Assembly (NCBI RefSeq): GCF_036894955.1
Contig: NZ_CP145905.1
Location: 3,738,501-3,802,500 of the forward strand
Reading direction: 5' to 3'
Length of the DNA stretch: 64,000 nt
Origin: Paenibacillus sp. KS-LC4
GTDB lineage: Bacteria > Bacillota > Bacilli > Paenibacillales > Paenibacillaceae
The notes under the pieces are model-generated. The model searched no databases, was not told the DNA's origin, and was given only the letters and a program-made list of their open reading frames with translations. Positions 6,001 to 53,942 of the stretch are shown in pieces. The translations under genes and the position numbers were made by a program. The stretch's first letter is position 1, and each line of letters begins with the position of its first letter.

Positions 6001-9000
6001 CGTATAACCCGCATCTTCCAGCGCCTCGTAGACGGTCTGCATGAACAAGCGCTCCTGCGGGTCCATAATCTCCGCCTCGCGCGGAGAAATGTTGAAGAAC
6101 AGCGGATCGAATTGATCCACGCCGTCGATAAATCCGCCCCATTTGCTGTTCGTCTTCCCCGGCTTGCTTTTGTCCGGGTCAAAATAGAGGCTATGATCCC
6201 AGCGTTCTGAAGGAATCTCCGTAATCGAATCCTTGCCTTCCCGAAGATTGTCCCAATATTCCTGAAGGTTGCGCGCCCCCGGATAGCGGCCGGAGACGCC
6301 AATGATTGCGACGTCCTGTCGGCTGTTCGCACCCCTTTCTTGTACATGCGTCATCGAAGCGAATCGCTGGCGTCGACGGCTGGTGAGCTCTTTCTGTCCC
6401 TGCGTCTCCTTGACCACAGGCTTGCGGACCGGCGCGGCGTCTTGCGCCTGCTCCTCGTCCCCTGTCAACCGCACCAGTTGCGCTCGATGCGATTCGAGGA
6501 AGTAGCCAGCCAGGTCTCGAAGGTTCTGGTACTCAAAAAAGAGCGTCTTCGGCAGAGAGCCAAATGTTTTTTCCAACTCGTTGGTCAGCTTCATCACTAG
6601 CACGGAATCAATCCCGTACTGTTCGAGCGGCGCAACCGCATCAAGGCGGCTCACCGGCCACTTCAATACGGTGGACACCTGCTCCTTGAGATACGCGATC
6701 GCTCTCTCCTGCAAAGGGTTCGCGTTCGAGGCAGCTACCTCCATCTGGCTCGTTTCCACAAGCTTCTCCGACACAGCAGCCCGCTTGCCTTGCGCAACCT
6801 CTCCAGCCTCCAACACACGGGAGATACACCCTTTAAGACGGATGCGAACCCTTCCCTCCTTGTCGCAGAGGTCGACGTCAAGCTTTTGCACCCTGTCTTC
6901 CGGTCGGCTGCCCGCGCTGTATCGAACGAGCGCCCACATTTCGGCCTCACACGGCCCAAAGACATCCAGCTCTTGCAGTGCAAAAGGAAGTGCCGTTTTG
7001 AATATATTTTGCCCGATTAAAAACCCGACGGCCGATTGCAGCGATGCATCTGCAAGGCTCGGATGCAGAAGGTAGTCGGCTAGTGACTCGTTGACAACAG
7101 AGGGCAGCCTCAATTCGGCCAGCACGCCTCCTTCGCCCACCTGCACCTGCCGGATGCCTTGAAAGGCCAGCCCATACTCCATTCCCATCGCACGGAAAAA
7201 TGCATAGCAGTCCGTTGCCCCGTACTGCTCCTGCATGAAGGATGCTTGCAATTCCTTCAAATCCCACTTCGGCGCATCTTCCGCCGACGCATTATGCACG
7301 GCGCGTCCCTGGCTGTGCACGATTTCCTCACCGTTTTGCACGGTGTACACCTCATATCCAACCTCTCCGCCCGTCTCCGGGAAAAGAGCGATGTGCACCT
7401 CAACGGGTTGTTCGCCGACGAGAATCGGCCGCGCCCAGACCACATTGCACAGGCGAATATTCTTTAGGTCAGCCGTCTGCTCGACCGCCTTGCGGGCCAT
7501 CTCTAGATAGGCCACGCCGGGCAGCACCTTCTGCCCCTTAACCACATGATCGGCCAAAAAGAACTCCGCTCCCGTGAACGTCGAGGAAAAGCGCTGTTCC
7601 GCAAAATCAGATGTGTTCCGATGAAGAAGCGGATGCAACTGCGACGCTGTCAGATGAGCGCTGGCCTCCGCCTTGAGTGCAGCCCAGTATTCTTCCCGCG
7701 CGAACGGATAGGTCGGCAAATTCGTGCGCACAGGTCTTTCTGAGCCGAACAGCGCGTCTCCCGCGATCTCGCCGCCCTGGCAGTACAGACCGGCAAGTTT
7801 CCGCAGATGCTCCTGATAGACCGCAGGATTCGTCGCCAATTTGCCGTTCTTTCCTGCCAGCTCTAGCACCTGCTCCTGTAGGGCTGACTCTCCGGCCCTC
7901 TCGCTCGCCACCTTGCCGCGGAACACATTAGTATTTTGCACACCTTCCCGTGCCTGCTTCAGAATGCGCAGCAGTTCCTGCACATCCTGCACCACGACCG
8001 CCAAACGATGGGCAAAATGCTGACGCCCCTCCAGCAACGTGTAGCTAATTTGCGCGAGACTGCCTGCAACGCCCGAATCACTCTCCAGCATCGCGATCAT
8101 GTCGTGTAGTTTCTCTTGCAGCACCTCGTCCGTTTTCGCCGAAAATGCGAGCAAGTAATGCGAATGCCGGAGACCGGTATTTCCTCTCTTTTCAAAACTG
8201 CGGACGACCATGTGCGCGTTGGTGCCGCTCATCCCAAACGAGCTCAACGCTCCCACACGGCTAGCGCCCGCCCGCTTCGTCCACGGCTTGCTCGTCTTAT
8301 TCACATAAAAAGCACTGTTTTCCCAATGGATGTACTCGTTCTCCGTCTCACAATGCAGACTGGCCGGAATGGTCTCATGCCGCATCGCCTGAACCAAGCT
8401 GATCAGGTTGACCAAGCCTGACGCCGCAAACGTATGGCCCAGATTGGTCTTGGTCGAAGTCAGCGCACAATACCCGCGCTTTTGCGTGCGGCGCTTGAAG
8501 ACGTCCTGTAGTGCATGAACCTCGACCGGGTCCCCGAGCTTCGTCCCGGTGCCATGCGTCACGATGTAGTCGATCTCTTCCGGGTCTATCTTGTGCTGCT
8601 CGTACACATCCTGTATGAGATTCGCCTGTGCGACGGTGCTTGGCGCCGTAATGCCGTTCGTCTTGCCGTCATAGTTCACGCCGCTTCCTTGGATGACCGC
8701 GTAGATCGGGTCACCGTCAGCCAGTGCTTGCGAGAGCCGCTTGAGCACAACGACCGCCACGGCTTCCCCCGGCACCAAACCATTCGCCCCGTTGTCAAAC
8801 GCCTTGCATTTTCCATCCTCCGACAGCATGCCTGCCTCCGTCATGCCTATGTAAGCGGTCGGAGTCAGCAGCAAGCTCACACCGGCGACCACCGCTGCGT
8901 CACACTCCCCATTTCGCAGACTCAAGCACGCCTGATGGGCTACTACTAGCCCAGAGGAGCAGGCGGTATTGATCGCCATCACCGGGCCGCTAAAGTTCAA

Positions 9001-11343
9001 GAAATACGGCAGTCGCGCTGCAAGAATCGCGTTATGGTTCGACGTGATGCTGGTGTTCTCACCTTGAGACAGTATCTGATAGTCGCCTTCTTCCACGCCG
9101 ACGAACATGCCGATCTTGTTTTCGTTCAGATGTCGCTTGCCCAATCCCGCATCTTCCAGCGCCCGCCACGCCTCTTGCAGGAGCAGGCGCTGTTTCGGGT
9201 CCATCGCTTCGGCTTCCAGCGGCGAGATTTCAAAGAACAGCGGGTCAAACTCACGAACGCCCGGCATTGCACCCAGCCATTTGCTACAGCTTCGTTCGCC
9301 ATAATACTCCCGCCAGTCATAGCGGTCTTCTGGAATTTCGGTAACCGCATCCCGCCCTTCGGCTAGAATGTCCCACAGTTCATCGATGTTGCGTGCTTGC
9401 GGGAATCGACCACTCATCCCGATAATCGCAATTGGCTCCGGCCCCGCTCCCGAGGTCTCGGCCGCCGTTGCCGCAATAGTGTCCTCAAGAGACGCTTCCC
9501 GCTGCTTCTCTACACGCTCAGGCCGCGCTCTCTCCGTCGCGTAGAAAGCGCGCACGACTTCACCATGCTCGCTCTCCAGATGGGAGACCAGCGCCTGAAT
9601 CGTCGAATGCCCGAAAAATACCGCCGGGGATATCCCCACGCCAAAATGCTTCGTCATTGCAGCGGCCAGCTCGGCCAAGCTGATCGACTCAAACCCAAAA
9701 TCGGCCAGATTCGTCCCTACGTCCAGCTTGTCCCGCGAAACCTTGAGAATTCCGCCAATCAGTTCTTGCAAATCCCACTTCAAGCACTGTGCTATCGTGA
9801 ATCCCTTCATCTCCGGAAGTCTTCCGGTTCCGAAAGGGGGGATCGCCTGCAAGGTAGGGGTCTTTGAAGGAGCTGACTGCGACTGAATCAGAAAGTGCTC
9901 GATCTGTCGTCGCTCTCCGGCCATGACCAGATGCTGCGTCCGCTCCTGCGAGAGAAGGAGGTCAAACAACGCCAGCCCTTCTTCCACTTCCAAAAAGCGC
10001 TGACCACTCGTTTTCAGGTAGATTTTTGCGCTCTCCTCATCTTTCAGCCCCATGCCTCCGTCTCTCCAGAGCGGCCAGTTGATCACCAGCGTCTTACCGG
10101 GACGTCCCTGTTCGTTTCGCATAGCTGCATAGGCCATCTGGAACCGATTCGCCAGCGCATAGTCACCCGAACCAAAGTCGCCGAGAATCGCCGAAGACGA
10201 CGAGAAATAGCAGACGAACTCCAACGCCTCTTCATCTGCTAGCAGCTCGTCAAGCACCTCAGTGCCCCTGATTTTCGGGTCAAGGATGCGCCTGAAGGTC
10301 TCCTCATCCTTCTCAAGGATGCTTCGGTCGCTCGCGGCACCCGCCGCATGCACAACGCCATGAATCGCGCCAAACTGCTCACTCGCTTGAGCAAGCCCTT
10401 CCCGCATCGCATCCGCATCACATACATCCGCTTCCACATACAGCACTTGGCTGCCCCGCTGCTCCAGAGCACGGAGCTTGGCCAGCTTCTCATCGTCAAG
10501 CGCAGAGCGGCCAGTCAGGATCAGCTTGACCCGACCTTTTTTCGCAAAATGTTCCGAAAATATATACCCAAGCCCGCCGCATCCTCCGGTGATTAAATAA
10601 GTGCCTCCTGCTCTCACCTTCAAGTCTCCCTCCTGCAAGTCGGTCGGCTGCACGGAGCAGACATACCGCTTGCCGAATCGGTAGAGAACGCTGGAGAGAG
10701 ACGGCGCTTGCAGCTCCGTCAAAATATTCGGCAGGCACGCAGCGAGCGAAACCTCCCCCTCTTGAATGTACATGGCTGCCTGCGTCTGTGGCAGCACGAG
10801 CCGAAGCGAGCGAGTCAGCCCGATCCACGACTCCAGATGACAGCGCTCCAATTCGTTGACATAAGAACCGAGGAGCAGCAGTCGCTTGGCTTGCACGTTC
10901 GACTTCGCCAGATTTTGGACAAGAGCAACGAGCGCAGCCGGGTTCTGACGGTAGCTCGCATCCTCCATCGGACAGAGGTACAATAAGGCGTCCACCTCCT
11001 GCCAGTCCTGACGTTCGTCGCCGAGCACATCCTGAAGGCTCTCCCCGCTGGTGACGAACGCAACCTGTGCGCGATCATCAACAGCCTGCACCGCTTCCAC
11101 GACCGCTTGCTGATGCTCCGGCTCTGTCAGAAAGCAGATCAGCTTGCTCGCACGAAGCGGCGTACCCTCGACCACCGTCTCCTCCTTCCAAACTTCTTCA
11201 TAGGTCAACAATTCAGAAGCCGGTTTAGTAACGGACTTGTTTCTGCTTGCCGCCTGTGCATTTCGAATCATATGTGTCGCTTCGGATTTGGACAAACGAT
11301 TGTGTTTCACTTCAGACAATAATTGCTGCAGGAAATCTTTCAT
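1..11343 (-). CDS. trans-AT polyketide synthase PKS4, 3' end off the left edge
   Basis: About 3,780 residues are visible and the frame is still open at base 1. Domains in order with approximate active-site residues: N-terminal docking-like helices (1-35); KR (253, catalytic Tyr in GDYALAN near 394); ACP (FGFESI, 551); KS (Cys in NTACSSG, 796; HGTGT intact); DH (HVVKGQKVLP, 1269; DxxxQ intact); ACP (YGIDSV, 1577); KS (DTMCSSS, 1850); DH (HLVKGQRVLP, 2338); KR (2768); ACP (YGFDSI, 3061); KS (ETACSSS, 3333). Each KS is followed by an LPTYPFA linker and no AT, which marks a trans-AT enzyme. The ATG at 11341-11343 has a strong GGAGG site 5-9 bases upstream. The N-terminal KR-ACP has no KS of its own, so the KS ending PKS3 probably completes that module. 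The KS-DH-ACP that follows lacks a KR and may act as the dehydrating half of a bimodule, although its KS triad is intact. Confidence 0.93.
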   Translation of the reverse strand, partial: MKDFLQQLLSEVKHNRLSKSEATHMIRNAQAASRNKSVTKPASELLTYEEVWKEETVVEGTPLRASKLICFLTEPEHQQAVVEAVQAVDDRAQVAFVTSGESLQDVLGDERQDWQEVDALLYLCPMEDASYRQNPAALVALVQNLAKSNVQAKRLLLLGSYVNELERCHLESWIGLTRSLRLVLPQTQAAMYIQEGEVSLAACLPNILTELQAPSLSSVLYRFGKRYVCSVQPTDLQEGDLKVRAGGTYLITGGCGGLGYIFSEHFAKKGRVKLILTGRSALDDEKLAKLRALEQRGSQVLYVEADVCDADAMREGLAQASEQFGAIHGVVHAAGAASDRSILEKDEETFRRILDPKIRGTEVLDELLADEEALEFVCYFSSSSAILGDFGSGDYALANRFQMAYAAMRNEQGRPGKTLVINWPLWRDGGMGLKDEESAKIYLKTSGQRFLEVEEGLALFDLLLSQERTQHLVMAGERRQIEHFLIQSQSAPSKTPTLQAIPPFGTGRLPEMKGFTIAQCLKWDLQELIGGILKVSRDKLDVGTNLADFGFESISLAELAAAMTKHFGVGISPAVFFGHSTIQALVSHLESEHGEVVRAFYATERARPERVEKQREASLEDTIAATAAETSGAGPEPIAIIGMSGRFPQARNIDELWDILAEGRDAVTEIPEDRYDWREYYGERSCSKWLGAMPGVREFDPLFFEISPLEAEAMDPKQRLLLQEAWRALEDAGLGKRHLNENKIGMFVGVEEGDYQILSQGENTSITSNHNAILAARLPYFLNFSGPVMAINTACSSGLVVAHQACLSLRNGECDAAVVAGVSLLLTPTAYIGMTEAGMLSEDGKCKAFDNGANGLVPGEAVAVVVLKRLSQALADGDPIYAVIQGSGVNYDGKTNGITAPSTVAQANLIQDVYEQHKIDPEEIDYIVTHGTGTKLGDPVEVHALQDVFKRRTQKRGYCALTSTKTNLGHTFAASGLVNLISLVQAMRHETIPASLHCETENEYIHWENSAFYVNKTSKPWTKRAGASRVGALSSFGMSGTNAHMVVRSFEKRGNTGLRHSHYLLAFSAKTDEVLQEKLHDMIAMLESDSGVAGSLAQISYTLLEGRQHFAHRLAVVVQDVQELLRILKQAREGVQNTNVFRGKVASERAGESALQEQVLELAGKNGKLATNPAVYQEHLRKLAGLYCQGGEIAGDALFGSERPVRTNLPTYPFAREEYWAALKAEASAHLTASQLHPLLHRNTSDFAEQRFSSTFTGAEFFLADHVVKGQKVLPGVAYLEMARKAVEQTADLKNIRLCNVVWARPILVGEQPVEVHIALFPETGGEVGYEVYTVQNGEEIVHSQGRAVHNASAEDAPKWDLKELQASFMQEQYGATDCYAFFRAMGMEYGLAFQGIRQVQVGEGGVLAELRLPSVVNESLADYLLHPSLADASLQSAVGFLIGQNIFKTALPFALQELDVFGPCEAEMWALVRYSAGSRPEDRVQKLDVDLCDKEGRVRIRLKGCISRVLEAGEVAQGKRAAVSEKLVETSQMEVAASNANPLQERAIAYLKEQVSTVLKWPVSRLDAVAPLEQYGIDSVLVMKLTNELEKTFGSLPKTLFFEYQNLRDLAGYFLESHRAQLVRLTGDEEQAQDAAPVRKPVVKETQGQKELTSRRRQRFASMTHVQERGANSRQDVAIIGVSGRYPGARNLQEYWDNLREGKDSITEIPSERWDHSLYFDPDKSKPGKTNSKWGGFIDGVDQFDPLFFNISPREAEIMDPQERLFMQTVYEALEDAGYTRETLAKHRGLGLDGNVGVYVGVMYEEYQLYGAQETLLGRPIALAGSPASIANRVSYFFNLHGPSLAVDTMCSSSLTSIHLACQSLQQGGCELAIAGGVNVSIHPNKYILLGQGKFASSKGRCESFGEGGDGYVPGEGVGAVLLKPLSKAIEDGDQIHGVIKASAINHGGKTNGYTVPNPNAQANVIEQALRQAGLDPSMVSYIEAHGTGTSLGDPIEIAGLSKAFQAKADGKQPSCAIGSAKSNIGHCESAAGIAGVTKVLLQMKHGQLAPSLHAKVLNPNIDFEATPFVVQQELGEWKRPLVEIGGQVREVPRIAGISSFGAGGSNAHVIIEEYVPAESLRTFVEVTPQNPAVFVLSAKNEQRLHQQAENLLAVLQEGRFANGNFADMAYTLQVGREAMEERLAVVAGSVEQLIRKLEAFISGQEEISKLFRGQVKGNRDTFSLFAADEELQEAIEKWIQRRKLSKLADLWVKGLALDWSKLWGEELPRRISLPTYPFAKQRFWAPQFERPSVVRAGLPTDALHPLLHRNTSDFSEQRYSTSLTGQEFFLSDHLVKGQRVLPGVAYLEMARAAVEQAGGAPDEDMQFLRLQNVVWTHPVTVSERPVEVHIGLSEEDDGIIAYEIFSGVDANIHSQGRAVILGKKQVEQLPVEELKTACTKREISASDCYESFAAMGLEYGPAQRALNLLQVGDGQILARLTLPPCVMGTDSQYVLHPSLMDAALQAAIGFQLGEAPLKPALPFALEELDIYAPCTSLMWAHVCYSEGCKPGDSVQKLDIRLCDELGNVCAYMKGFSSRVLENQSDSEACETLMLAPHWMEQACEQQEATAYAEHLVLSCEFEVDVKGARCLTLQEDEKDIGVRFEAYAMQALEETQRILRGKPKGKVLVQIVVHAHAEQLLLAGLSGLLKTAQLENPSLIGQLIEVDKLEEVEEKLLAERDSGKEARIRYQGGSRQVAGWLEVPASVDADAFLKPWKEGGIYLLTGGAGGLGLVFAKEIATQAPGATLVLTGRSVLGESQLEALSELESIGARVVYKQVDVTDRAAVEKLFAELQVDYGTLNGILHSAGVIRDSFIIKKTAAELTQVLAPKVRGLVNLDVASRDMALDFFVLFSSLSGGLGNPGQADYAAANAFMDQFAAHRNRRVAVGDRLGRTLSINWPLWKEGGMHVDPETEKWMMQSLGMIPLRTKSGLRAFYEGLASAQNQVLVIEGKAERIKKKLLPAAASVSSSSVSGSVDVKADSMNLRERVLGLLTQTVSRLLKVDAEELDADAELSEYGFDSITLTEFANDLNEAYKLDLMPTIFFEHPTLHEFAGYLTDECRDVFASRLTAPSTPAAAVQAETARAEVAGSLLQEAPSTRAVRQKRRLRTAGVQQAQSAVTEPIAIVGMSGAFPQSRDMQEFWHNLVEGIDCISEIPPERWDWRAYFGDPNTEVNKTNIKWGGFLDETDKFDSLFFGISPLEAKLMDPQQRLLMTYVWKAIEDAGYSAQSLSGSKTGIFVGTGSSGYSGLITNANFPIEGYSSTGVVPSVGPNRMSYALNLHGPSEPVETACSSSLVAIHRAASAMQNGDCDMAVVGGVNTIVTPEAHISFNKAGMLSEDGRCKTFSDAANGYVRGEGVGMLVLKKLSVAERDGDHIYGLIRSTAVNHGGRANSLTAPNPKAQADLLINAYVKAGIDPRTITYIEAHGTGTELGDPIEINGLKSAFHELYRRTGTQEVESVHCGLGSVKTNIGHLELAAGIAGVIKVLLQLRHRTLAPTLHCEKVNPYIQLEGSPFYLVREVKRWEALHDAAGQDLPRRAGVSSFGFGGVNAHAIIEEYVPKERPSLKTDNSTKNPYIIALSAKNEHRLKEQVRQLCSALVAQKFAEEDLASIAYTLQVGRDAMEERLALVVTSVEELERKLKVILQGQTGLSEVWRGQVKRGKISLAEAAAHPEAREAEQIAELWVKGYFSDWNRLYGEKRPLRLSLPTYPFAKERHWISQAQDGYEALLFEPIWTE

Positions 11344-11398
11344 ATGTACCTCCTCAAGCTTCGGCGTTTCTTTGTGAATATCTCTTATATAAATAGAA

Positions 11399-11424
11399 AA
11401 AAGGGAGGATTACTCCCCCCTTTT
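11399..11424 (-). terminator. intrinsic terminator-like hairpin in the leader of PKS4
   Basis: On the minus strand an 11-base-pair stem (A4G6A paired with TCCTCCCTTTT, one G-U) closes a GTAA loop. It is followed by further T residues, then CTATTTAT. It lies 55 bases upstream of the PKS4 start, between two genes that otherwise look co-transcribed. The rest of the 295-base gap (11344-11638) holds a candidate promoter and no supported gene. It may be a LoaP-controlled attenuator; that is inferred. Confidence 0.7.
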
Positions 11425-11604
11425 CTTGCGTTCGGCTATGAAAATATGTCATGCGGACATACTCTTCCCATGTCATCTGCCCACATGCACACGACACCAT
11501 GCAATTGGATGTGCTTCTTACACCCGCCAACGCGCCGCAACATCGATTGGAGAGCGAACAAGAAGTTTGTTTCAAACATGCCATCATTTACCATCTTATA
11601 TCTA

Positions 11605-11634
11605 ATACTAATCTCGCAACATTCATTTAGTCAA
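11605..11634 (-). promoter_or_regulatory. candidate sigma-A promoter upstream of PKS4
   Basis: Reading the minus strand, TTGACT (11634-11629) is followed after 18 bases by TAGTAT (11610-11605). The -35 matches consensus at five of six positions and the -10 at four of six. It starts just after the PKS3 stop codon and would give a leader of roughly 250 bases containing the terminator at 11399-11424. The alternative is simple read-through from the upstream operon promoter. Confidence 0.35.
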
Positions 11635-14600: not shown

Positions 14601-17600
14601 GCGGAAAACAGCACGAAGAAGTCCAGCGGCAGCCCAATGCTCGAATGGTCGAGGTGGACCAAACCGCTCACTTTGGGAGCCAGCACCTCCTGCATCTCCT
14701 GCCCGGTTTTGCGGATGATGAAGTTGTCGCGGATCACGCCCGCTCCGTGCAGGATGCCTTGGAGGGTGCCATAGTGCACGCGGATCTCCTCAAACAGGCT
14801 GGCGACTTCCTTTTCCCGCGTCACATCGACCTGTCGGTACTCGATAAGCGCGCCGAGGTTTTTCAGCTCTTGCAGAGCCGCTTGCTGCCGCAGGCCCAAG
14901 GGGGAGCGGCCGATGAGGATTAGTCTCGGAGCCTTGACTTTGCTCGCAATCTCTTTGGCAAAAATCAGGCCGAGCCCTCCCGCACCTCCGGTCAGAAGGT
15001 AGACGCCGCCATCTCGCCACGGGATGTGGAACGTCTGCTGCGAGACTTCCGCCACGTCCCAATAAGCAACCCAGCGCTGGTCGTATCGGTAGCGGATGCA
15101 ATCATCTTGCAGAGAATGACAATTTTCCAAAAGCTTACTTTCCAAATCGGTCGTGTTCTCAACCTCGATCAGTTGTGCAATCAGGTTCGGGTTCTCGCGG
15201 CGGGCGGTGCGAAGCAGTCCGACAAGGCCGCTGAAGACTTGACCTTCTCCGTCGGCGGGCACCACGACTTGCACCAGCACCTTGCCTTGTGGCTTGCTGC
15301 GCAAAAGGGTCTGGATCTCTTCGAACACGCGCACCGCATACGCTTGGTAGCGGCTTGCGATGTCTTGAAGATCCGATTGCAGCGCCTTAATCTGCCCACC
15401 GAGCACGAGAGGTGCAGTCAGCTCGCAGAGCAGCACCAGATGCTGCGACAGGGCAGGAGGGAGCGTCTTGTGAGCGATGCCCTGCTGCTTCCAGGCCGGC
15501 TGCAGCAAGTGTGCCCCCGGCTCGTGTCCCCCGGCTTCCTCTTCCAACACACGTGAGGTGTAGCCTTTCAAGCGCACGCGCACCTGACCATTTTCGTCAC
15601 AAGCGTCCACGTCGAACTTCTGCACCTTGTCTTCCGCTCTGCTGCCTTCGCTGCGGCGCACCACGGCCCACATCGAGGGTGTACACGGGCCGTATATCTC
15701 GACTTCCTCCAACGCGAAGGGCACTTGCGGCTTGAATGATGCAGTGCCGAGCATTAGGCCAATCGCGGCCTGCAGCGCTGCGTCCATGAGGCTCGGATGC
15801 AAGACGTAGCGGCTCTCTGTGTCGGCCACACAATCGGGCAGCGACAACCTCGCCAGCACCTGCCCCTCCGCAATCGACAGGCTCTCGACCCCTCGGTGTG
15901 CCGGCCCATAGTTCAGCCCGGCTTGGCGGAAAAGCTCATACAACTCGGAAGCGCTGATTCGGTTCTGCGAGCAGACCGTCTGTAAAGTGGTGAGATCGAC
16001 GGCAGGAGCATCTACCTTACCCAAGCGTCTCGCCCGGCCTTGGCTGTGTACGACAGTCCCTCGCCCGTCTCTGACTTCATAGGAAATCGCCTCGGCCTCC
16101 TCTGCCCGCAGCCCTACCTGAACCTCAACCGGCCCGTTCCCTGCGAGGATCGGGCTTACGAAGCCCACATGCTGCAAGCGCCATGAGCTGCCTTCTTCGC
16201 TCGCTCCTGCCGCCAGCTCTAGAGCTGCGCGGACCATTTCAAGATGGACCACGCCCGGCAAAATCCGCTGTCCGTTGATCACATGATCGGCAAGGAAGAA
16301 TTCTTTTCCTGTAAAAATAGACGTATAACGCTGCTCTTCCAGCACCGAAATGTTTTCGTGAAGCAACGGATGGAGCATGCGAAAATTTATACCGCCTGCT
16401 TTCGCGACAGACTGTGCCGAATCCTCCGGCTTCCAATACCGCTCCTTGGCAAACGGATAGGTCGGCAGCGGGATGCGCGCATAAGGCAGCCCTTCAAACA
16501 GGCGTCCGTACTCCAGAGCATAGCCTTGTGCGTACATATCGGCCACGGCCGCGAGCTGTTCGAGCTGGTCTGCCCCTTGGGCACCATGGCAAAAGTTTTC
16601 GATGCACTGGCCGCCGTAGCGTTTGAGCGAGGGCTGCTCCCGAAGTTCATTCTCAAGCAATTCGCCATAAAACACCCCTGCGACTGTTCTCGTCTCCAGC
16701 CATTTTTGCAGCGACTTGACGAGTTCCGGCACATCGCGTACAACACAGGCCAAGCGGTGAGGCAGATGCCTGCGCCCGACGAGCAAAGTGTAGCTGATGT
16801 TGCCGCATTCCGCATTCGGTTCCTGCTCGCAGAAGGCGATCAGATTCTGCACCTGCTTGCGAAGCTGTTCGGCGGTGCGAGCGGACAGCACGATTAGATG
16901 CCCGGCTCTGTCAATCGGCTGCCGAACAGGCTCCGGCGGTTCCTCGATCACCATATGTGCGTTGGTGCCGCTGAACCCGAAGGCGCTGATTGCCGCTCGG
17001 CGCCTGCTCCCCGGCTCGATGCTCCAGTCCCGAAGCTTAGTATTCACATAAAACGGGCTGCCTTGATGCTCGATGTTTGCATTCCACGCATCAAAATGAA
17101 GCGAGGGCGGCAGCTGCTTGTGCTCCAGCGCAAGCAGAATTTTGAGCAACCCGGCGACCCCGGCCGCCGCAGCTGCGTGTCCGATGTTCGTTTTGATCGA
17201 ACCGAGCGCGCAATATTCCTTGCGATTCGTGTAGGCGCGGAAGGCGCGAGTCAAGGCTTCGAACTCGATCGGATCGCCGAGCTTCGTTCCGGTGCCATGC
17301 GCTTCGACCAGTTGAATCTCCCCCGGGTTGATCCCATTCTTCTCGTAGACTTCGCGCTCTAGGCGCTCTTGCGAATTGGCGCTGGGAGCGGTGATCCCGT
17401 TCGTTGTGCCGTCCTGGTTGAGCGCCGAGCCTCGAATTATGCCATATATATGATCCCGGTCGGCGAGCGCGTCCTTCAGTCGTTTGAGGACGACGACCCC
17501 CACGCCTTCTCCCGGTACGAATCCGTTCGCTTGATCATCGAACGTATGACAGCGCCCTGTCGACGAGAGCATGCTCGCACGCTCTGCCGTCAAGTAGAAA

Positions 17601-47242: not shown

Positions 47243-50200
47243 TTACAATCCGACCAATTCAGAGATGCGCCGATTTAGCAGCTCTGCCGTTTCGCGCATC
47301 AGTTTTTCACCGATCACATCGACATGGCGCGCTCTCCAGCCTTCCAGCGACGTGCCTTTCACCCAGCGGTTGAACGCCCCCAAGGCCGGGCCGCAATGCA
47401 CCTGATAATCCACCGTGTGCTCGGCATCCCCGCTGAGCGCCATGCGCGACGAATAGCCAAAATACCATTTGAAGATCAGCGCCATCTTGTGCTTGGGATT
47501 GCGCTCCGCCTTCTCAAGCTCCTGCGAGGACACATAGGCTTGCACTTCGCGGTAGACCTCGTCGAAACTGCGCTTGAAGTAGCGCTCTTGCAAAATGCGA
47601 CGGGTCTTCTCATCAATCTCCTCCAGCGAGTTGAACTGGCGGTAGAGATCATACAGCTTGTTTGCACGAGCCGGGAAAAAGACGCCTTTTTTCAAAACCT
47701 GCACGCGAGCGCCGATCTCAAACATGTCGCCCGCCGGCGCATAGGCCGTGTCCTGCACGTTCATATCCTGCAGCAGATCCTTCACCGACTCGGAAGTCTG
47801 CGCTTCCACCGTGCATTGGTTGATCGAGCCGGTCACGAGATAATCCGCCCCGAGCACAAGCGCCGCCACCGCCGCTTCCGGGGTTCCGATGCCTCCGGCC
47901 GCCCCGATTCGAATCTTCTTCTTGTATCCGTATTTGGCCATAACCTCATCACGCAGGCGAACGATCGACGGAAGCAGCACGGAAGACACCCCCTGATCGG
48001 TATGTCCGCCGGAATCAGCCTCGACGGTGATGTCATCCGCCAACGGAACTTCGCGGAGCATATCTGCTTCCTCGCGCGTGATCCTCTGCTCCAGCAACAG
48101 CTTGTCGACGATGCGCTCCGGTGCAGGACTCAGAAACGCCTCGGCAACCTCCGGGCGAGAGACTTTGGCGAGGATGCGGTTTTCGATAATCACAACGCCC
48201 TCTGCCGAGCGTTTCAACCCTTTCGCCCGGTAGTGAACCAATGCGGAATTTACCGCCATGTAGGCGCTTGCCTCCACGTTCCGCACTCCGGATCGAAGGA
48301 AGAGCTCGACCGTCTTCTCCTCCATCAATGGGTTGCTCTGGTTATGGAGCAGGTTCATGCCATACGACTCACCGCGCGTCAGCGCCTGTTGAATCGTGCG
48401 GATCGCCTGTTCGATTTGCTCCAGCTTCAAGCCGCCAGTCCCGTAAAAACCCAGCATGCCCGCCTTGCCGACCTGAATGACCAGGCGCTCGGAAGCCACT
48501 CCGCGATACATCGAGCCCGTGACATAGGCGTACTTCAAGTTATAGTCCTTCTTGAACTCCTCATTGCCTAGCGATTCTGCCATGCTCGCCCTTCTCGACA
48601 TACGCATGTTCGGCTCGTTCACAGGTTCCCTCATCGGTACGAACTCCGCCTGAGCGGGAGCAGGCGACTGAGCAGCGACTGCCATCTCTGCCTCCGTGAT
48701 AGACGACGATATCAATACCTCAGGCACAGTCACAGACGCCGCCACCAGCACCGCCTCTTCCACGTCATCTGCCTCCTGCTCGATGACGAGCGGTTCGGCT
48801 TTGCGGCGAATCGTGGTGACGAGCTTGGTCAGGACATTGCCCGGCCCGACTTCTTCGATTTCGATCTCGCCAAGGCCCATCAGGTAGCGCACACTGTCCG
48901 TCCACTTGACCAGAGACACGATCTGCTGTGCCAAATTATCCTTCACCTGCCGCTGCTTGTACGGACGCGCATAAACGTTCGAAATGACTGGAATTTCAAG
49001 TTCCGAAAATTCAAATAATTCCAAATACGCTTCAAAGCTCCGCTTGCTCTCCACCATATACCGGGAATGAAAAGCCCCGCTCACATTAAGCGGAATGTAC
49101 ACGCGCACGCCCGCCTGCTCAAAAAATGACTGCGCGCGCAAAATGTCCGTCTTCAAGCCTGCAATGACGATCTGGTCCGGCGAATTATGGTTGGCGATGT
49201 CGATTCCGTCCAGGCCGTTCTCCATCAGCACGCGGTCGATCTGCTCCACCGTAAACCCAATTACCGCCGCCATTCCCCCACCGCTCGCAAGGCTCATCAG
49301 TTCGCCCCGTTTTTTGACCATCCGCAGACCGGTAGCAAAATCATACGCCCCTGCAGCAAACAGCGCATTGTACTCACCCAAGCTGTGCCCGGCCACATAA
49401 TCCGGCTTGCATCCTGTCTCCTGCACCTTCTTGAGGAAACTCAGTGCGTTGACCACATACAGAGCAGGCTGCGTGTACTGCGTCTGGCCCAGCTGATTGT
49501 CCGGGTCCTCCAAGCACAGCCTTTTGATCGAATAGCCCAAAATCTCATCCGCTTGCGCGATCAGATCTGCAAACTCGTCAAACAGCGTACCTCCCATGCC
49601 TTTGTGCTGAGAGCCTTGCCCAGGAAACACATATGCTTTCATAGGTTGTCCTCCCTTTCTGATGGACGATGAAATGAGTTGCTCCATTTGCTCGCAAGCC
49701 TTATATAAGTTTTTGAGATCCTGCTGATACGGTGTAAGAACCGCATAGCTTTGCGAGAGCGAATTCTGTTTAAAATTCCGCTTGACCAGATTGGCGAGCG
49801 TTCCAGAAGGACCCAAATCCACGTAAAGACAATCGCCTTCCCGCTCCAGCGCCTGCACCGCTTCAGCAAAGCGAATCGGCTGTCGGGCCACCTCCCAGAA
49901 ATACTCGCTCCTCAGCGCTGTTTCCCGCCGCCCGGTTACCCCGGAATAAAATCGCACCCGCGGCTGACGATACGACAGACCGCGCAGCCGCGCTTCATAG
50001 GAAGCCGCTGCCGGATCAATCCAAGAGGAATGATACGCAAAGGAGGTCGGCAAAATCTGATAGGCGATGCCGTTCTTCCGCAGCGCCTCCGCGATGCTCG
50101 GCAGTTTCGCCGCCGGACCGGCCACCACAAAATGCGCGTCCGAATTAATCGACACCAGCTCCGTGTTCTCACGCAAGAGCAGCATTCTGTCATAGAGGCT

Positions 50201-50632
50201 CGGCTCCTGTAGAATCCCGATCATCCCGCCGGGGAGGCAGGTAGCCTCAAACGTCTTGGCCTGCTCCACCACCAGTTCCAACGCTGCCTCCACATCGAGC
50301 ACACCTGCCACAGCCGCCGCCGCGAACTCGCCCATGCTGCTGCCAAGGACCGCATCTGGCTGGACACCGCGAGCCATCAGCACCTGCGCCAGCGCATATT
50401 CCACCATGAAGATCGCGGGGTGACTCAGCAGCGTCCGTTCAAACGGCTCATCTCGGCGCTTGTCCTCCGCATACAGACGCGCCAGCACCGATTCCCCGAT
50501 GAGCGGCGTCACCATCTCGTCTAGCTTGTTCATCCATTTGCGAAACTCAGATACTTCCTCATAGAGCCCCCGACCCATCTGGTAAAATTGAGAGCCCTGC
50601 CCAGAGAAAAGAAACACTATCGGCTTGCCCAT
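47243..50632 (-). CDS. tandem acyltransferase plus enoylreductase (AT-AT-ER), trans-acting
   Basis: 1,129 residues with three parts. AT1 (about 1-330) starts [10 protein letters not shown] and has the nucleophile motif GSSMG where malonyl-ATs have GHSxG; this may be a proofreading acyl hydrolase of the PedC type. AT2 (about 333-640) starts YVFPGQGSQ with an intact GHSLG and GAFHS, so it is the likely malonyl-CoA transferase loading the ACPs of PKS1-4, which have no AT of their own. A linker rich in Ala, Glu and Val leads to a PfaD/PksE-type flavin enoylreductase (about 710-1129) with [11 protein letters not shown]. The ER could act in trans on one or more modules, since none has an embedded ER. 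The ATG is preceded by AGGAGG seven bases upstream and follows the hydrolase gene by 36 bases. Confidence 0.93.
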
Positions 50633-50668: not shown

Positions 50669-51349
50669 TTATTTAAAATGAAACAAATGCCCCTGATTCT
50701 TGCGCATCCGAAACCGCACAAAATGCTCTTTTTGCTCCATTTGAAAATAAATGTTGTGCTCCAGCACATCCTGAAAAGCCATGCCCGGCTCCTTGCCAAA
50801 GCTATGACCCGGATACACCCGCACATGAGGGGGAGTGGACCTGCGAATTTTCTGAAAACTGTCATACATCTGCTCCGGGGAACCTCCTGCCCCATTGCAG
50901 ACGCCGCAGCCTTCAATAAATACCGTATCCCCGGTAATCAGATCGTCTGCTAGCCGAAAACAAGCCCCGCCAGCCGTGTGCCCTGGCGTCAGCATGCAGG
51001 TAATTGACGTTTCTCCCAGCCTGATCGTCTCTCCCTCCTCAAATGGATACAGATTCCGACATGCGAACCCGTAAGCATGGATCTCCTTAACCGACATATA
51101 CGCCCGTGCCGCCGGGTAAAGCTTAAGCAGCGGCTCCACCTTGTTGACATGATCGTGGTGAGAATGTGTAAGCAGAATACAAGTCAACTCCACCTCCAAT
51201 GATCGAAGCATCCCGTCAAGCAACTCCAAGTCCCAAGCCGGGTCCACCACAGCCGCATGCCGGGTGGCTTTGTCTACGAGTATGTACGCATAATTTTTCA
51301 TGAACAAAAACTCAACCTTCAACGGGTGCAGCTCATAGCTCCGCCTCAT
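50669..51349 (-). CDS. metallo-beta-lactamase-fold hydrolase (PksB/BaeB type)
   Basis: 226 residues, first gene of the minus-strand PKS operon. The metal site THSHHDH (HxHxDH) is near residue 62, with later ligands in TPGHTAGG, ITGDTVF and YPGHSFG. This is the glyoxalase-II-like layout typical of the stand-alone hydrolases in trans-AT PKS clusters such as pksB and baeB. Those are thought to hydrolyse thioesters or detoxify stalled or misloaded intermediates; the role here is inferred. The start has GGGGAGGAAGG directly upstream of ATG. The N-terminus (MRRSYELHPLKVEFLFMKNYAY) could instead begin at the second Met. Immediately upstream is a strong hairpin with a U-tract. Confidence 0.88.
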   Translation of the reverse strand: MRRSYELHPLKVEFLFMKNYAYILVDKATRHAAVVDPAWDLELLDGMLRSLEVELTCILLTHSHHDHVNKVEPLLKLYPAARAYMSVKEIHAYGFACRNLYPFEEGETIRLGETSITCMLTPGHTAGGACFRLADDLITGDTVFIEGCGVCNGAGGSPEQMYDSFQKIRRSTPPHVRVYPGHSFGKEPGMAFQDVLEHNIYFQMEQKEHFVRFRMRKNQGHLFHFK

Positions 51350-51378: not shown

Positions 51379-51434
51379 AAAGCAAGCACAAAAAAGCAGA
51401 GGAACGATCTCCTCTACTTTTTTGTGCTTGCTTT
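51379..51434 (-). terminator. long attenuator or terminator hairpin in the PKS operon leader
   Basis: A 25-base-pair inverted repeat with a 6-base loop. On the minus strand one G-U pair replaces what would be a C-A mismatch on the plus strand, so the structure is selected on the PKS-operon transcript. The inner part (GTAGAGGA...TCCTCTGC followed by T6) is a terminator by itself. The full stem pairs A6 with T6 and ends in T5. It lies 29 bases upstream of the first PKS-operon gene. A terminator in front of a whole operon implies regulated read-through. Confidence 0.85.
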
Positions 51435-51438
51435 GACT

Positions 51439-51467
51439 ATCTTATATATCTACTTCCACCTTGTAAA
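51439..51467 (-). promoter_or_regulatory. candidate promoter for the PKS operon
   Basis: On the minus strand TTTACA (51467-51462) and TAAGAT (51444-51439) are separated by 17 bases. Transcription would start near 51432, at the base of the leader hairpin. A longer leader starting further upstream is equally possible; a TTGACA at 51714-51709 has no convincing -10. Confidence 0.3.
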
Positions 51468-52001
51468 ACAGCTTCAGCAAGGCTTTCCGATCAAGACGAA
51501 CCTACTCGGCAACCAGCCCTATCGGCTGCACTTCTGGAAAACACGAGCATCGCAATGTATGATGCTTACCTGCAAGTTGAGAGCAGCAGAATGTACGATC
51601 AGCGGCTTGTGAACAATCTCGCAATCAATCCAGATGTTCATCCCGCACACAAGTCACCGTCGATTGCGCACAGCAAACTGCACCAAGCGCTGTACGGGTT
51701 CACTCGCATGTCAAGTCCCAGGGAGAAGCTCCCGGAGGGCATACCTCTCCCATGCTCCTTACCCTCAACACGCAACAATATGATACCCTAAGTGCCTTTA
51801 ACGTGCCTAAACAACGATTAAATAAGCTTAGGGATTTTGTTAGATTCAACCAATATACGATTAACGAACCTACGAAATGCACAACAGAACCTATAACACG
51901 AATACAGCTTAATACTACCCTCATTCAACTTTGTTCGTCAAGGATTACTTACTAGAAACCTATTTTCTCTATTCCCAGCCCTTAATATGATATGGTAAAA
52001 T
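51468..52001. other. long non-coding region between loaP and the PKS operon
   Basis: About 530 bases without a supported gene. 51480-51790 has higher GC and short open frames on both strands that resemble nothing I recognise; 51791-52001 is AT-rich. It may hold a distal PKS promoter and leader RNA, including a GGGAG-CTT-CTCCC hairpin (minus strand, near 51720-51732), or a decayed gene. Confidence 0.4.
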
Positions 52002-52031
52002 AAGACATGGTATATTGTTGTAAAATATACT
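52002..52031 (+). promoter_or_regulatory. candidate loaP promoter
   Basis: AAGACA (52002-52007) and TATACT (52026-52031) are spaced by 18 bases in an AT-rich stretch 45 bases upstream of the loaP start. The -10 is good (five of six) and the -35 moderate. Confidence 0.4.
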
Positions 52032-52076
52032 ATTTTTTGCTCGTTTGCTTATTAAACAAAATACAAAAGTTGGGGG

Positions 52077-52640
52077 ATGACTATTTTGAATTGGTACGTG
52101 CTATTCGTAGAAACCGGTCAAGAAGAGGTTGTGCAAAAGTTTCTGAACCTGTACTTTGATGAAGCTTCCCTGCACTCTGTCATACCGAAACGCAGAGTCC
52201 CCGAGAAGAAGGCAGGCGCTGTCAAGCATGTGCTGAAGAAAATATTCCCCGGCTACGTATTAATCAAGACTCGCATGACCGATGAAGTTTTTCACACCTT
52301 GAAAAAAGTCCCCAAGTGCTACAAGCTGCTCAACCAAGGCACGCTCTACTCCAAAGATGAAGGAACCTATTACTCCAAAATTGACGAACGCGAGATATCG
52401 CTAATCTTGCGACTGATCGGAGACGGAGAGATCGTTGGCATTTCGGGTATTTACATAGAAAATTCACGTGTCTCCGTAACCTCCGGCCCGCTGAAGGGCA
52501 TGGAAGGCATCATCGCCAAAATAGACCGTCACAAAAAACGGGCCAAGATCCACCTCAGCTTCATGGGTGCCGAGAAGCTCATTGACGTAGGCGTGGAGAT
52601 CCTCTCCCCATGCATCCCTCAGCTACAAGAGACTACATAA
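52077..52640 (+). CDS. loaP: LoaP-type NusG paralogue, transcription antiterminator
   Basis: 187 residues. An N-terminal NGN domain (NWYVLFVETGQEE to PGYVLIKTRM) is followed by a KOW domain (SGPLKGMEGIIAKIDRHKKRAKI). NusG proteins bind RNA polymerase through the NGN domain. The LoaP subfamily consists of specialised paralogues next to large biosynthetic operons that let polymerase read through terminators; in Bacillus velezensis LoaP promotes expression of the difficidin and macrolactin PKS operons. Here loaP is divergent from a trans-AT PKS operon whose leader has a strong terminator, so that operon is the obvious target. The GGGGG at 52072-52076 touches the ATG at 52077, so the real start may be the TTG at 52086, nine bases from the G-run, giving MNWYVLF as in relatives. 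AT-rich codon use differs from the GC-rich PKS genes. Assignment as LoaP rather than core NusG rests on context. Confidence 0.85.
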   Translation: MTILNWYVLFVETGQEEVVQKFLNLYFDEASLHSVIPKRRVPEKKAGAVKHVLKKIFPGYVLIKTRMTDEVFHTLKKVPKCYKLLNQGTLYSKDEGTYYSKIDEREISLILRLIGDGEIVGISGIYIENSRVSVTSGPLKGMEGIIAKIDRHKKRAKIHLSFMGAEKLIDVGVEILSPCIPQLQETT

Positions 52641-52703
52641 AAAATATCCCCTTTCCAGTAAGGTAATGGGATGTACAGGTTGGCGAGATTTTCTCGACAA
52701 CCA

Positions 52704-52742
52704 AAAAGATCAAACCGCCCCTATAAGGCGATTTGATCTTTT
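52704..52742. terminator. bidirectional terminator between loaP and sigF
   Basis: A 16-base-pair inverted repeat (AAAAGATCAAA...TTTGATCTTTT) whose loop holds the sigF stop codon. On the minus strand the single mismatch becomes U-G and the stem ends in U4, suiting the spoIIA transcript. It can also stop loaP transcription from the other side. A second imperfect hairpin (GGTTGGCGAG/CTCGACAACC) lies next to it. Confidence 0.75.
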
Positions 52743-53476
52743 ATGGACTGCAATATTTTTTTCTCCAGACGCGACACCTGAACTTGTGAAATGCCTAGAC
52801 GGCTCGCTACCTCTGACTGCGTCTTATCCCGGTAATAACGCAAATATACGATGAGCCGCTCCCGCTCGCTGAGGCCTTCAATGGCCTCGGTCAGCGCAAG
52901 CTTGTCGAACCAGCGCTCCTGCGAATCATCAGCAATTTGATCCATCAACGTAATCGGATCGCCGTCATTTTCAAACACCGTCTCATGAATGGAGGTTGGC
53001 GGCTTATTCGCTTCCTGGGCAAATACGACATCCTCCGGCGTAATACCCAATCGTTCTGCCACCTCGCTAATGGTCGGCAGCCTTCCAAGCACCTTGGACA
53101 GCTCGTCTTTCATTTTACGCACCTTATTGGCTGTTTCCTTGAGCGAGCGGCTAACCTTAAGCGTACCGTCATCGCGCAAAAATCGCTGAATTTCACCGAT
53201 AATCATCGGCACGGCATAAGTAGAAAATTTCACATCATAGGAAAGATCGAATTTGTCAACCGACTTGAGCAGGCCGATACAGCCGATCTGAAACAGATCA
53301 TCAGGCTCATAGCCGCGGTTGATGAAGCGCTGAACGACTGACCATACCAACCGAATATTGCATCCTACAAGCGTGTCCCTTGCCAACGTGTCGCCAGACT
53401 GGCTTAATGCAATAAGCCGCTTTACTTCCGCATCATCCAAATACGGCTGAGCCGTTTGTTTCAACCCGGAATCCAT
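52721..53476 (-). CDS. sigF: RNA polymerase sporulation sigma factor SigF
   Basis: 251 residues from the ATG at 53476. Region 2 contains NIRLVWSVVQRF, GYEPDDLFQIGCIGLLKSVD and KFSTYAVPMIIGEIQRFLRDD. Region 4 has LIVYLRYYRDKTQSEVA and a helix-turn-helix RLGISQVQVSRLEKKIL. This closely follows Bacillus SigF, which directs early forespore transcription and is held inactive by SpoIIAB. The ATG has AGGGG nine bases upstream; a TTG nine bases earlier in frame would overlap that site. It is the last gene of the spoIIA operon, whose terminator overlaps its stop codon. In Bacillus subtilis spoVA genes follow sigF; here loaP and the PKS locus do. Confidence 0.97.
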   Translation of the reverse strand: MDSGLKQTAQPYLDDAEVKRLIALSQSGDTLARDTLVGCNIRLVWSVVQRFINRGYEPDDLFQIGCIGLLKSVDKFDLSYDVKFSTYAVPMIIGEIQRFLRDDGTLKVSRSLKETANKVRKMKDELSKVLGRLPTISEVAERLGITPEDVVFAQEANKPPTSIHETVFENDGDPITLMDQIADDSQERWFDKLALTEAIEGLSERERLIVYLRYYRDKTQSEVASRLGISQVQVSRLEKKILQSIKDQIAL

Positions 53477-53495
53477 GAGGTTCAACCCCTATGCG

Positions 53496-53942
53496 CTAGT
53501 TGTATAGCGCTTTTTTCGATTCAATTCGTTTCAGCATGCTGACGCGCGTACCGCCGCCAAGCTCGCTTGCAACCTCGAATCGGTCCATAAAATTTTCCAT
53601 AATCGTAAAGCCCATACCCGAGCGCTCAAGCTCCGGCTTGGAAGTGTAAAGCGGCTGGCGAGCCAAGTCCAAATCCTCAATACCGCGCCCCTGATCAATA
53701 ACCGTCAAGGAAACCGCGTCTCCTTCAATATAACCCTCTATCGTCACTTTGCCGGCTGCATCGCTATCATAGCCGTGAATAATCGCATTGGTTACCGCTT
53801 CCGAGATGGCTGTCTTTAAATCATTCAGCTCCCCCAAAGTCGGATCGAGCTGAGAGACGAAGGATGACACCGCTACGCGGGCAAAAGCTTCGTTCTCTGA
53901 GCGGGCGCTGAAGGTTAACGTCATTTCATTGCGTCCATTCAC
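53496..53942 (-). CDS. spoIIAB: anti-sigma F factor and serine kinase SpoIIAB
   Basis: 148 residues of the GHKL ATPase fold: N box ([12 protein letters not shown]), G1 box (DQGRGI) and G2 box (SGMGFTIM). It binds and inhibits SigF in the predivisional cell and phosphorylates SpoIIAA. The start is GTG at 53942-53940, overlapping the spoIIAA stop (GTGA) and preceded by GGAGG, so the two genes are translationally coupled. A 19-base gap separates it from the sigF ATG. Confidence 0.97.

Follow-up and report, generated by a model that had tools for sequence, protein, structure and literature searches.

Genes at the locus

The window (the whole stretch of 64,000 nucleotides analysed, from Paenibacillus sp. 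KS-LC4) contains a trans-acyltransferase polyketide synthase (PKS) cluster on the minus strand and a divergent loaP gene on the plus strand (Table 1). The loaP product scores 226.1 bits with the NCBIfam model antiterm_LoaP (NF033641; cut-off 125) and 77.4 bits with the core NusG model (cut-off 135.7). The NusG, RfaH and UpxY models all fall under their own cut-offs. This bears out the original prediction of a NusG paralogue divergent from the PKS operon. By sequence, the closest solved chain is 8f5g (E 1.3e-27). TTG 52086 is the likelier start codon, favoured over 52077 by its Shine-Dalgarno spacing. The RNA-binding residues of LoaP are E40, R41 and I143 in Bacillus velezensis numbering. In the collection searched, the nearest named loaP loci are those of Paenibacillus tianmuensis and P. 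tyrfis, with 90–91% LoaP identity. Few genomes of the genus have the gene (4 of 51, the source genome counted), and its presence in the Paenibacillaceae is patchy (76 of 394 genomes). The cluster adjoins the spoIIA genes sigF (52721–53485) and spoIIAB (53496–53942), and the gap between loaP and sigF contains a terminator-like repeat at 52700–52745, judged by eye to be bidirectional (AAAGATCAAA..TTTGATCTTTT).

The MBL-fold hydrolase encoded by the first gene of the PKS operon is SolJ-like, yet it is under the cut-off of the SolJ model (172.5 vs 350 bits). The Pfam matches of PKS 3 do not include an acyltransferase domain. The PKS 4 open reading frame (ORF) continues past the left end of the window, and its orthologues encode 5350 aa in genome G048 and 5457 aa in genome G565. 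The first unit is a 39.7-kb coding region that extends from 51349 to 11639. It is followed by a second promoter, docking hairpin and terminator of the LoaP type ahead of PKS 4 (11343). This is not congruent with the 45-kb operon gated at one hairpin that had been predicted; the supposed operon is at least two LoaP-type units.

Table 1. Positions of genes and leader elements in the window, with the basis of each assignment.
Feature	Position	Strand	Basis
loaP (NusG paralogue of the LoaP family)	52077–52640	+	ORF and NCBIfam model
Leader 1 promoter, TTGACG-18-TAGTAT	51912–51941	-	Hexamers and spacing kept in relatives
Leader 1 LoaP docking hairpin P1 (likely) with CATA motif	51774–51842	-	R1 model, family covariation
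Leader 1 degenerate P2/pause element (GGGAGAGGTATGCCC)	51735–51764	-	Aligns with leader 2
Phosphopantetheinyl transferase (PPTase) gene remnant	51440–51753	-	Leader alignment; intact in L032
Leader 1 intrinsic terminator	51379–51434	-	Fold; conserved in relatives
MBL-fold hydrolase, first PKS-operon gene	50669–51349	-	Pfam Lactamase_B above cut-off
Tandem acyltransferase-PfaD protein (trans-AT)	47243–50632	-	Profile models including Pfam
PKS 1, 3840 aa	35601–47123	-	ORF; PKS identity by DNA similarity between modules only
PKS 2, 5186 aa	20057–35617	-	ORF; PKS identity by DNA similarity only
PKS 3, 2774 aa	11639–19963	-	Pfam
Leader 2 promoter, TTGACT-18-TAGTAT	11605–11634	-	Identical in G048 and G565
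Leader 2 LoaP docking hairpin P1 (likely), UGCG loop	11505–11572	-	R1
Leader 2 P2 hairpin and pause-like motif GGGAAGAGTATG	11453–11497	-	R2
Leader 2 intrinsic terminator	11397–11426	-	Fold; conserved in G048 and G565
PKS 4, 3781 aa inside the window	1–11343	-	Open ORF; PKS by DNA similarity

Leader 1

The hexamers and spacing of the leader 1 promoter are identical in six other loci (L003, L006, L032, L033, L034 and L207). The pattern TTGACK-N18-TAGTAT, composed after both sites were known, occurs exactly twice in the window, once in each leader, with 0.01 sites expected. From the -10 boxes, transcript 5' ends are estimated at about 51905 (leader 1) and 11598 (leader 2).

Downstream of the promoter, and 339 nt upstream of the terminator hairpin in the RNA, is the hairpin P1, to which attention was drawn by a match of 27 nt with L037, a locus whose LoaP is 37% identical. 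Its core (51797–51822) has a UUAG loop and an inner stem UUUAA-CG-UGU, and its outer stem is CCCUAAG/CUUAGGG. It scores 71.4 bits with the covariance model R1, which was built from 40 sequences including this one, and 2 of 200 shuffles have as good a folding energy. This UNCG-class element is likely the LoaP docking hairpin of leader 1. The second element that follows P1 scores 12.4 bits with model R2 (E 3.7); its P2 hairpin is not recognisable, and it is overlapped by the start region of the former PPTase gene.

The hairpin at 51379–51434 has 26 pairs, a loop of 4 and a folding energy of -40 kcal/mol (RNAfold), with none of 200 shuffles as good (z -11). Its 3' arm contains a U6 run and finishes in a U5 run, of which three residues are paired in the 26-bp fold. 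It ends 29 nt before the ATG at 51349. This position and the U-tract are the reasons for reading it as a terminator. Its plus-strand reading folds less stably (-35.6 kcal/mol) and has a C/A mismatch. The terminator is conserved in all five related loci aligned (L003, L006, L032, L033 and L034). In L032–L034 and L006 there is a G-U at the adjacent pair, where again the PKS transcript has a wobble and the opposite strand a mismatch. The L003 terminator has no wobble of this kind in the alignment.

In L032, an intact PPTase gene (Pfam ACPS, E 2.4e-14) lies between the docking hairpin and the terminator, and the alignment places a PPTase gene in the same position in L033, L034 and L006. The window and L003 keep only a remnant of it, and in the window the remnant stretch has no minus-strand ORF of at least 80 aa. 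Since the intact gene of L032 is ahead of the terminator, LoaP would gate the PKS genes and not the PPTase.

The original prediction had described a 25-bp hairpin with nested U-tracts 29 nt before the first gene. The hairpin is confirmed at 51379–51434 by its fold and by the shuffles, and RNAfold amends the count to 26 pairs. The G-U pair on the PKS transcript with a C-A mismatch opposite is upheld, and four of the five relatives have a similar adjacent wobble. The pairing of LoaP with a leader terminator facing the PKS operon also stands and fits the published LoaP mechanism. The choice of 51379–51434 as the key element does not, because the LoaP-type docking hairpin is likely the separate UNCG-class element at 51774–51842. 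The view of the terminator as simply part of a PKS leader is likewise superseded, since relatives have a PPTase gene between docking hairpin and terminator.

Leader 2

Leader 2, with promoter, docking hairpin and terminator, occupies 11397–11634, between the PKS 3 stop (11639) and the PKS 4 start (11343). Its P1 is outside the R1 training set and scores 26.7 bits (whole-genome E 0.31); the orthologues score 31.5 bits in G048 and 32.5 bits in G565. The folding energy of this hairpin is near that of shuffles (24 of 200 as good). When the source genome (G000, one contig of 6.25 Mb) is searched with R1, there are two matches up to E 10, both within the PKS cluster. Despite its weak score, the leader 2 P1 is convincing because of its location, the shared promoter type, the UGCG loop, the P2 hairpin with pause-like motif and the terminator. 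The P2 and motif element, one of the 46 R2 training sequences, scores 32 bits with R2. G048 has the same sequence with the same score, and the R2 match in G565 scores 32.3 bits. The leader 2 terminator folds at -18.4 kcal/mol, with 0 of 200 shuffles as good, and is 53 nt before the PKS 4 start codon.

G048 and G565, the latter from another family, keep the whole of leader 2, again ahead of a giant ORF. There, the outer stem reads CUCCUU/AAGGGG in place of CUUCUU/AAGAAG. Of the two leaders, leader 2 has the extended element in full, and leader 1 has a degenerate form of it. The 5' leader hairpin has a UNCG-type loop at leader 2 (UGCG) and a UUAG variant at leader 1. In each leader an intrinsic terminator lies between the hairpin and the first gene (51379–51434 and 11397–11426).

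Distribution of P1

A letter scan finds the P1 element in 43 of 72 loci, counting the window's own copy (L001). Forty of these 43 form alignment A1, from which R1 was built. In A1, 88.4% of cells are paired and there are 95 double-change cells vs 36 in shuffled alignments; the covariation score is attained by 0 of 500 shuffles. The loop is UNCG in 81 and UUAG in 15 of 99 boxes. These comprise 80 of the 81 family boxes outside the source genome (G330 omitted) and 19 named, class-level and own loci, further loci of these three kinds having been left out as near-duplicates.

Within the Paenibacillaceae, R1 matches 53 of 76 genomes with loaP and 3 of 318 genomes without it. Excluding the 22 family genomes used in training, it matches 31 of 54 genomes with loaP. 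Both R1 and R2 were trained on loci that neighbour loaP. At 30 further LoaP loci, where the letter scan was empty or not run, R1 finds a box in 6, within the fetched flank. There is no good R1 box at the more distant LoaPs L036 and L038–L044, where the best score is 21.9 bits (L042).

Several loci have unusual boxes. The three genomes with boxes that lack loaP at E 1e-30 (G030, G161 and G257) are drafts of 90–240 contigs; loaP may be in an assembly gap, or the targets may be orphaned. In G552, contig C5 has two P1 boxes back to back and 146 nt apart, at 16184–16251 on the minus strand (L184) and at 16398–16464 on the plus strand (L185). The second box is weak (E 0.0047), and loaP is on another contig, C12; these are perhaps divergent LoaP targets that act in trans. 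One clade (G135, G147, G153–G155, G309 and G352) has GGCGGGU in place of the UNCG loop region, for example GTTAATCGCTGGCGGGTCACGTTAAC, with GGTGGGT in G352, and the LoaP of this clade may have altered RNA recognition. The boxes of L105, L107, L108, L111 and L143 have neither P2 nor the pause-like motif. They are directly followed by a strong terminator, with a stem like GCTTACG...CGTAGGCATTTTT.

The second leader element

On the 3' side of the P1 outer stem the layout is CATA, then GUA, the P2 hairpin and the pause-like motif GGGCGAAGCUAUGYCC, with a spacer of 4 nt between P2 and the motif in many boxes. Among 83 non-redundant boxes, 55 match at least 11 of the 16 motif letters, as do 1.5% of shuffled sequences, and 28 are missing a clear motif. 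P2 pairing was counted in 53 of 76 boxes, chosen by a GUAGUG-like start and independently of pairing; these have 217 inner pairs vs 147 (standard deviation 6). P2 covariation was scored in 46 hand-picked sequences (alignment A2), which are 45 of 52 boxes with a GUAGUG-like start and the window's leader 2. Seven boxes that are near-duplicates, weak or misfitting were omitted (L051, L055, L062, L120, L175, L177 and L179). In A2, 90.7% of cells are paired, and there are 52 double-change cells vs 16 in shuffled alignments.

R2 models P2 and the motif alone, without P1. In the Paenibacillaceae it matches 51 of 76 genomes with loaP and 2 of 318 without. Outside the training genomes it matches 22 of 47 genomes with loaP, and both matches without loaP are in training genomes. 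Beyond the Paenibacillaceae, 21 of 25 genomes with loaP have a match, or 15 of 19 when the six training contributors are subtracted. R2 matches none of 35 control genomes, which have no LoaP over the LoaP cut-off. For 20 of these controls, absence means no LoaP match at E 1e-35, and for 15 none over the LoaP cut-off; 7 of these 15 have sub-cut-off LoaP-model matches of about 109 bits, which are probably core NusG. Taken together, R1 or R2 matches 68 of 76 Paenibacillaceae genomes with loaP vs 3 of 318 without, and 8 of the 76 have neither at E 0.01. Correction for training sets lowers the match rates, and the contrast with loaP-negative genomes remains.

The two elements generally occur as neighbours. 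Of 74 R2 matches in the family, 48 sit 2–12 nt after an R1 match. Of the remaining 26, the matches in G000 and G048 are accompanied by their P1, and 20 more have a P1-like stretch upstream. This stretch matches at least 22 of 26 letters in 19 of the 20 (shuffles 0.2%) and 20 of 26 letters in G145, a level reached by 6% of shuffles. For these 20 the check is a loose letter match, which together with G000 and G048 brings the coverage to 22 of the 26, and several of the 20 are closely related.

The 12 nt after P2 are most often GGCGAAGCTATG (26 of 55 boxes). TG is at positions 11–12 in 51 of 55 motif boxes and is combined with GG at positions 1–2 in 49, in a motif search that favoured such sites. 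In 21 of 53 boxes, the distance from the end of the P2 stem to the putative pause nucleotide downstream is exactly 16 nt by an unconstrained hairpin search.

Other pairings of this region were rejected. A pseudoknot GUAGU/GCUAU was dropped by eye, as boxes with GGUGUG still have GUAGU. Two helices were scored in 53 boxes (the 55 with at least 11 motif letters, minus L066 and L156). A CATA/CUAUG helix has 309 paired cells vs 312.9 shuffled, and a GGGC/GYCC helix around the pause-like motif has 170 vs 169.7. At gathering score, Rfam 15 gives no family in the window or in 20 loci, and permissive Rfam searches, one stretch each, give sub-threshold matches only.

In G254, G259, G232 and G261, R2 elements occur at steps of about 66–76 kb toward loaP; in G254, for example, they are found at 1993072 and 2066134, and loaP at 2136191. 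A series of very long operons may each begin with a LoaP loading site. A different, terminator-like structure is present at the distant LoaPs of Thomasclavelia, Erysipelotrichaceae and relatives (L040–L044), where another hairpin is accompanied by GAACATAGT...ACTATGTTC-T6. In L041–L043 this structure lies about 66 nt after loaP (L041 7051–7073, L043 10556–10578). This is perhaps a LoaP leader of another type.

Terminator placement

A terminator-like hairpin lies 40–800 nt after the box in 54 of 82 cases on the sense strand vs 12 of 82 on the antisense strand. Terminators are often 120–180 nt past the P1 core, a layout that leader 2 fits. At leader 1 the distance from hairpin to terminator is about 400 nt because the PPTase remnant intervenes. 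Between 11000 and 51450 the sense strand has 16 terminator-like sites besides the two leader terminators, and the antisense strand has 15, one of which is the leader 1 hairpin read reversed. Internal terminators of the first PKS unit are thus near background and were dropped as a signal. Uninterrupted stems on the sense strand of this region are found at the two leader terminators only.

Proposed mechanism and alternatives

Control of the PKS genes by LoaP is well supported by the anatomy of the leaders and by comparison between genomes. LoaP very probably loads at both leaders through P1 and carries RNA polymerase through the leader terminators. LoaP made from the divergent gene would be recruited to polymerase twice along the cluster. 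At each leader a promoter of the same type would start the transcript, and P1 would bind LoaP as it emerges. The polymerase that carries LoaP would then pass the strong intrinsic terminator, which is 29 nt from the start codon at leader 1 and 53 nt at leader 2, and would withstand termination for tens of kilobases more. In cells that lack LoaP, transcription would mostly stop at the leader terminators and no polyketide would be made. Where they follow P1, as in many related leaders, P2 and the consensus-pause-like motif may hold the polymerase for the hand-over of LoaP.

Two other accounts of the leaders have to be weighed. The terminators could be ordinary insulators that stop transcription coming from the former PPTase gene and from PKS 3, with the PKS promoters after them and LoaP acting elsewhere or nowhere. 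The L032 leader 1 terminator is directly 3' of the intact PPTase gene, and leader 2 comes immediately after the stop codon of PKS 3 (11639), as insulators might. However, terminator and start codon are just 29 and 53 nt apart, conserved promoters precede P1 and the terminator in both leaders, P1 and P2 are tied to loaP genome-wide, and the source genome has no R1 match outside the cluster up to E 10. An insulator role is very unlikely on these grounds. Alternatively, LoaP could load at P1 and serve mainly against internal or Rho-dependent polarity in the 40-kb and 16-kb coding regions, with leaky leader terminators of secondary importance. The great length of the PKS genes, the 16 internal sense-strand sites and the published action of LoaP on internal terminators as well (PMC12691694) are congruent with this. 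The 15 antisense sites, which put the internal ones at about background, and the restriction of uninterrupted sense stems to the leaders are not, and protection from polarity as the main role is unlikely, if less so than insulation.

The role of the second element is less certain than read-through at the leaders. Instead of a pause or DNA signal, P2 and GGCGAAGCTATG could be an RNA platform for the other domain of LoaP, for NusA or for a ribosomal protein. The clear covariation of P2 as an RNA hairpin speaks for this, as does an identity to the E. coli ops 12-mer of just 6 of 12 in 38 of 55 boxes (6 or more are reached by 4.4% of random 12-mers). Against this, the 12-nt stretch that follows P2 shows sequence conservation and no covariation for either tested helix, GG and TG recur at positions 1–2 and 11–12 in 49 of 55 boxes (sites that the motif search favoured), and the 16-nt distance from P2 to the putative pause nucleotide is exact in 21 of 53. 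We hold the platform to be a real possibility at slightly less than even confidence. The other proposal is a two-part LoaP signal, in which P1 would catch LoaP and, within about 65 nt, P2 and an ops-like consensus pause at GGCGAAGCTATG would hold the polymerase, the whole being a loading station that recurs along giant biosynthetic clusters. The N-terminal domain of LoaP would read the pause, possibly as a non-template mini-hairpin. This proposal is tentative and is put forward with more doubt than confidence.

Comparison with known systems

LoaP has been held to differ from the RfaH/ops mode. If the two-part signal is true, LoaP unites RNA-hairpin recruitment with that mode. The pause at ops is at U11, and the non-template strand forms a hairpin closed by a C3:G8 pair (PMC5995543). 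In common with E. coli RfaH/ops, the LoaP systems have a NusG paralogue and, in most motif boxes, a 12-nt element with GG at 1–2 and TG at 11–12, a layout that the motif search favoured; in ops this TG is pause-inducing (PMC5995543). Unlike RfaH/ops, LoaP also has an RNA hairpin, and about 6 of 12 letters are identical. The non-template strand does not have an ops core of the GGCGGTAG type; the commonest form is GGCGAAGCTATG (26 of 55). The motif is not called ops, because this 6/12 identity (38 of 55 boxes) is also reached by 4.4% of random 12-mers.

The EAR RNA of the eps operon, a long operon of B. subtilis, is structured and promotes terminator read-through. The window leaders resemble it in being structured RNA in a long operon of the Bacillota, with proposed read-through. 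Unlike EAR, they are linked to LoaP and have no Rfam family at gathering score.

The closest known system is that of B. velezensis, in which LoaP binds and requires a hairpin of UNCG type in the leader and counteracts NusA at the leader terminator (PMC12691694). In the dfn leader, a downstream pause between hairpin and terminator aids LoaP; the 2025 paper speculates that such a pause assists the passage of LoaP from hairpin to polymerase and leaves a DNA signal possible (PMC12691694). The window shares with dfn and mln the link between LoaP and PKS, the UNCG-type hairpin and the terminator before the first gene (PMC12691694). Unlike dfn and mln as described there, it has two leaders in one cluster and a UUAG loop in leader 1 (PMC12691694), and its leader 1 has the remains of a gene between the hairpin and the terminator. 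The outer stem, CATA, P2 and the GGCGAAGCTATG motif of the window family have no mention for dfn or mln in the available part of that paper (PMC12691694).

The covarying second element, which is tied to loaP across several families, is a concrete sequence to mutate in studies of how LoaP is transferred from RNA hairpin to polymerase. R1 and R2 together are a means of finding LoaP-controlled biosynthetic operons, also far from loaP. The local system belongs to the known LoaP kind and has two putative loading sites within a single cluster, and the comparison suggests that a second, conserved leader element is part of that kind.
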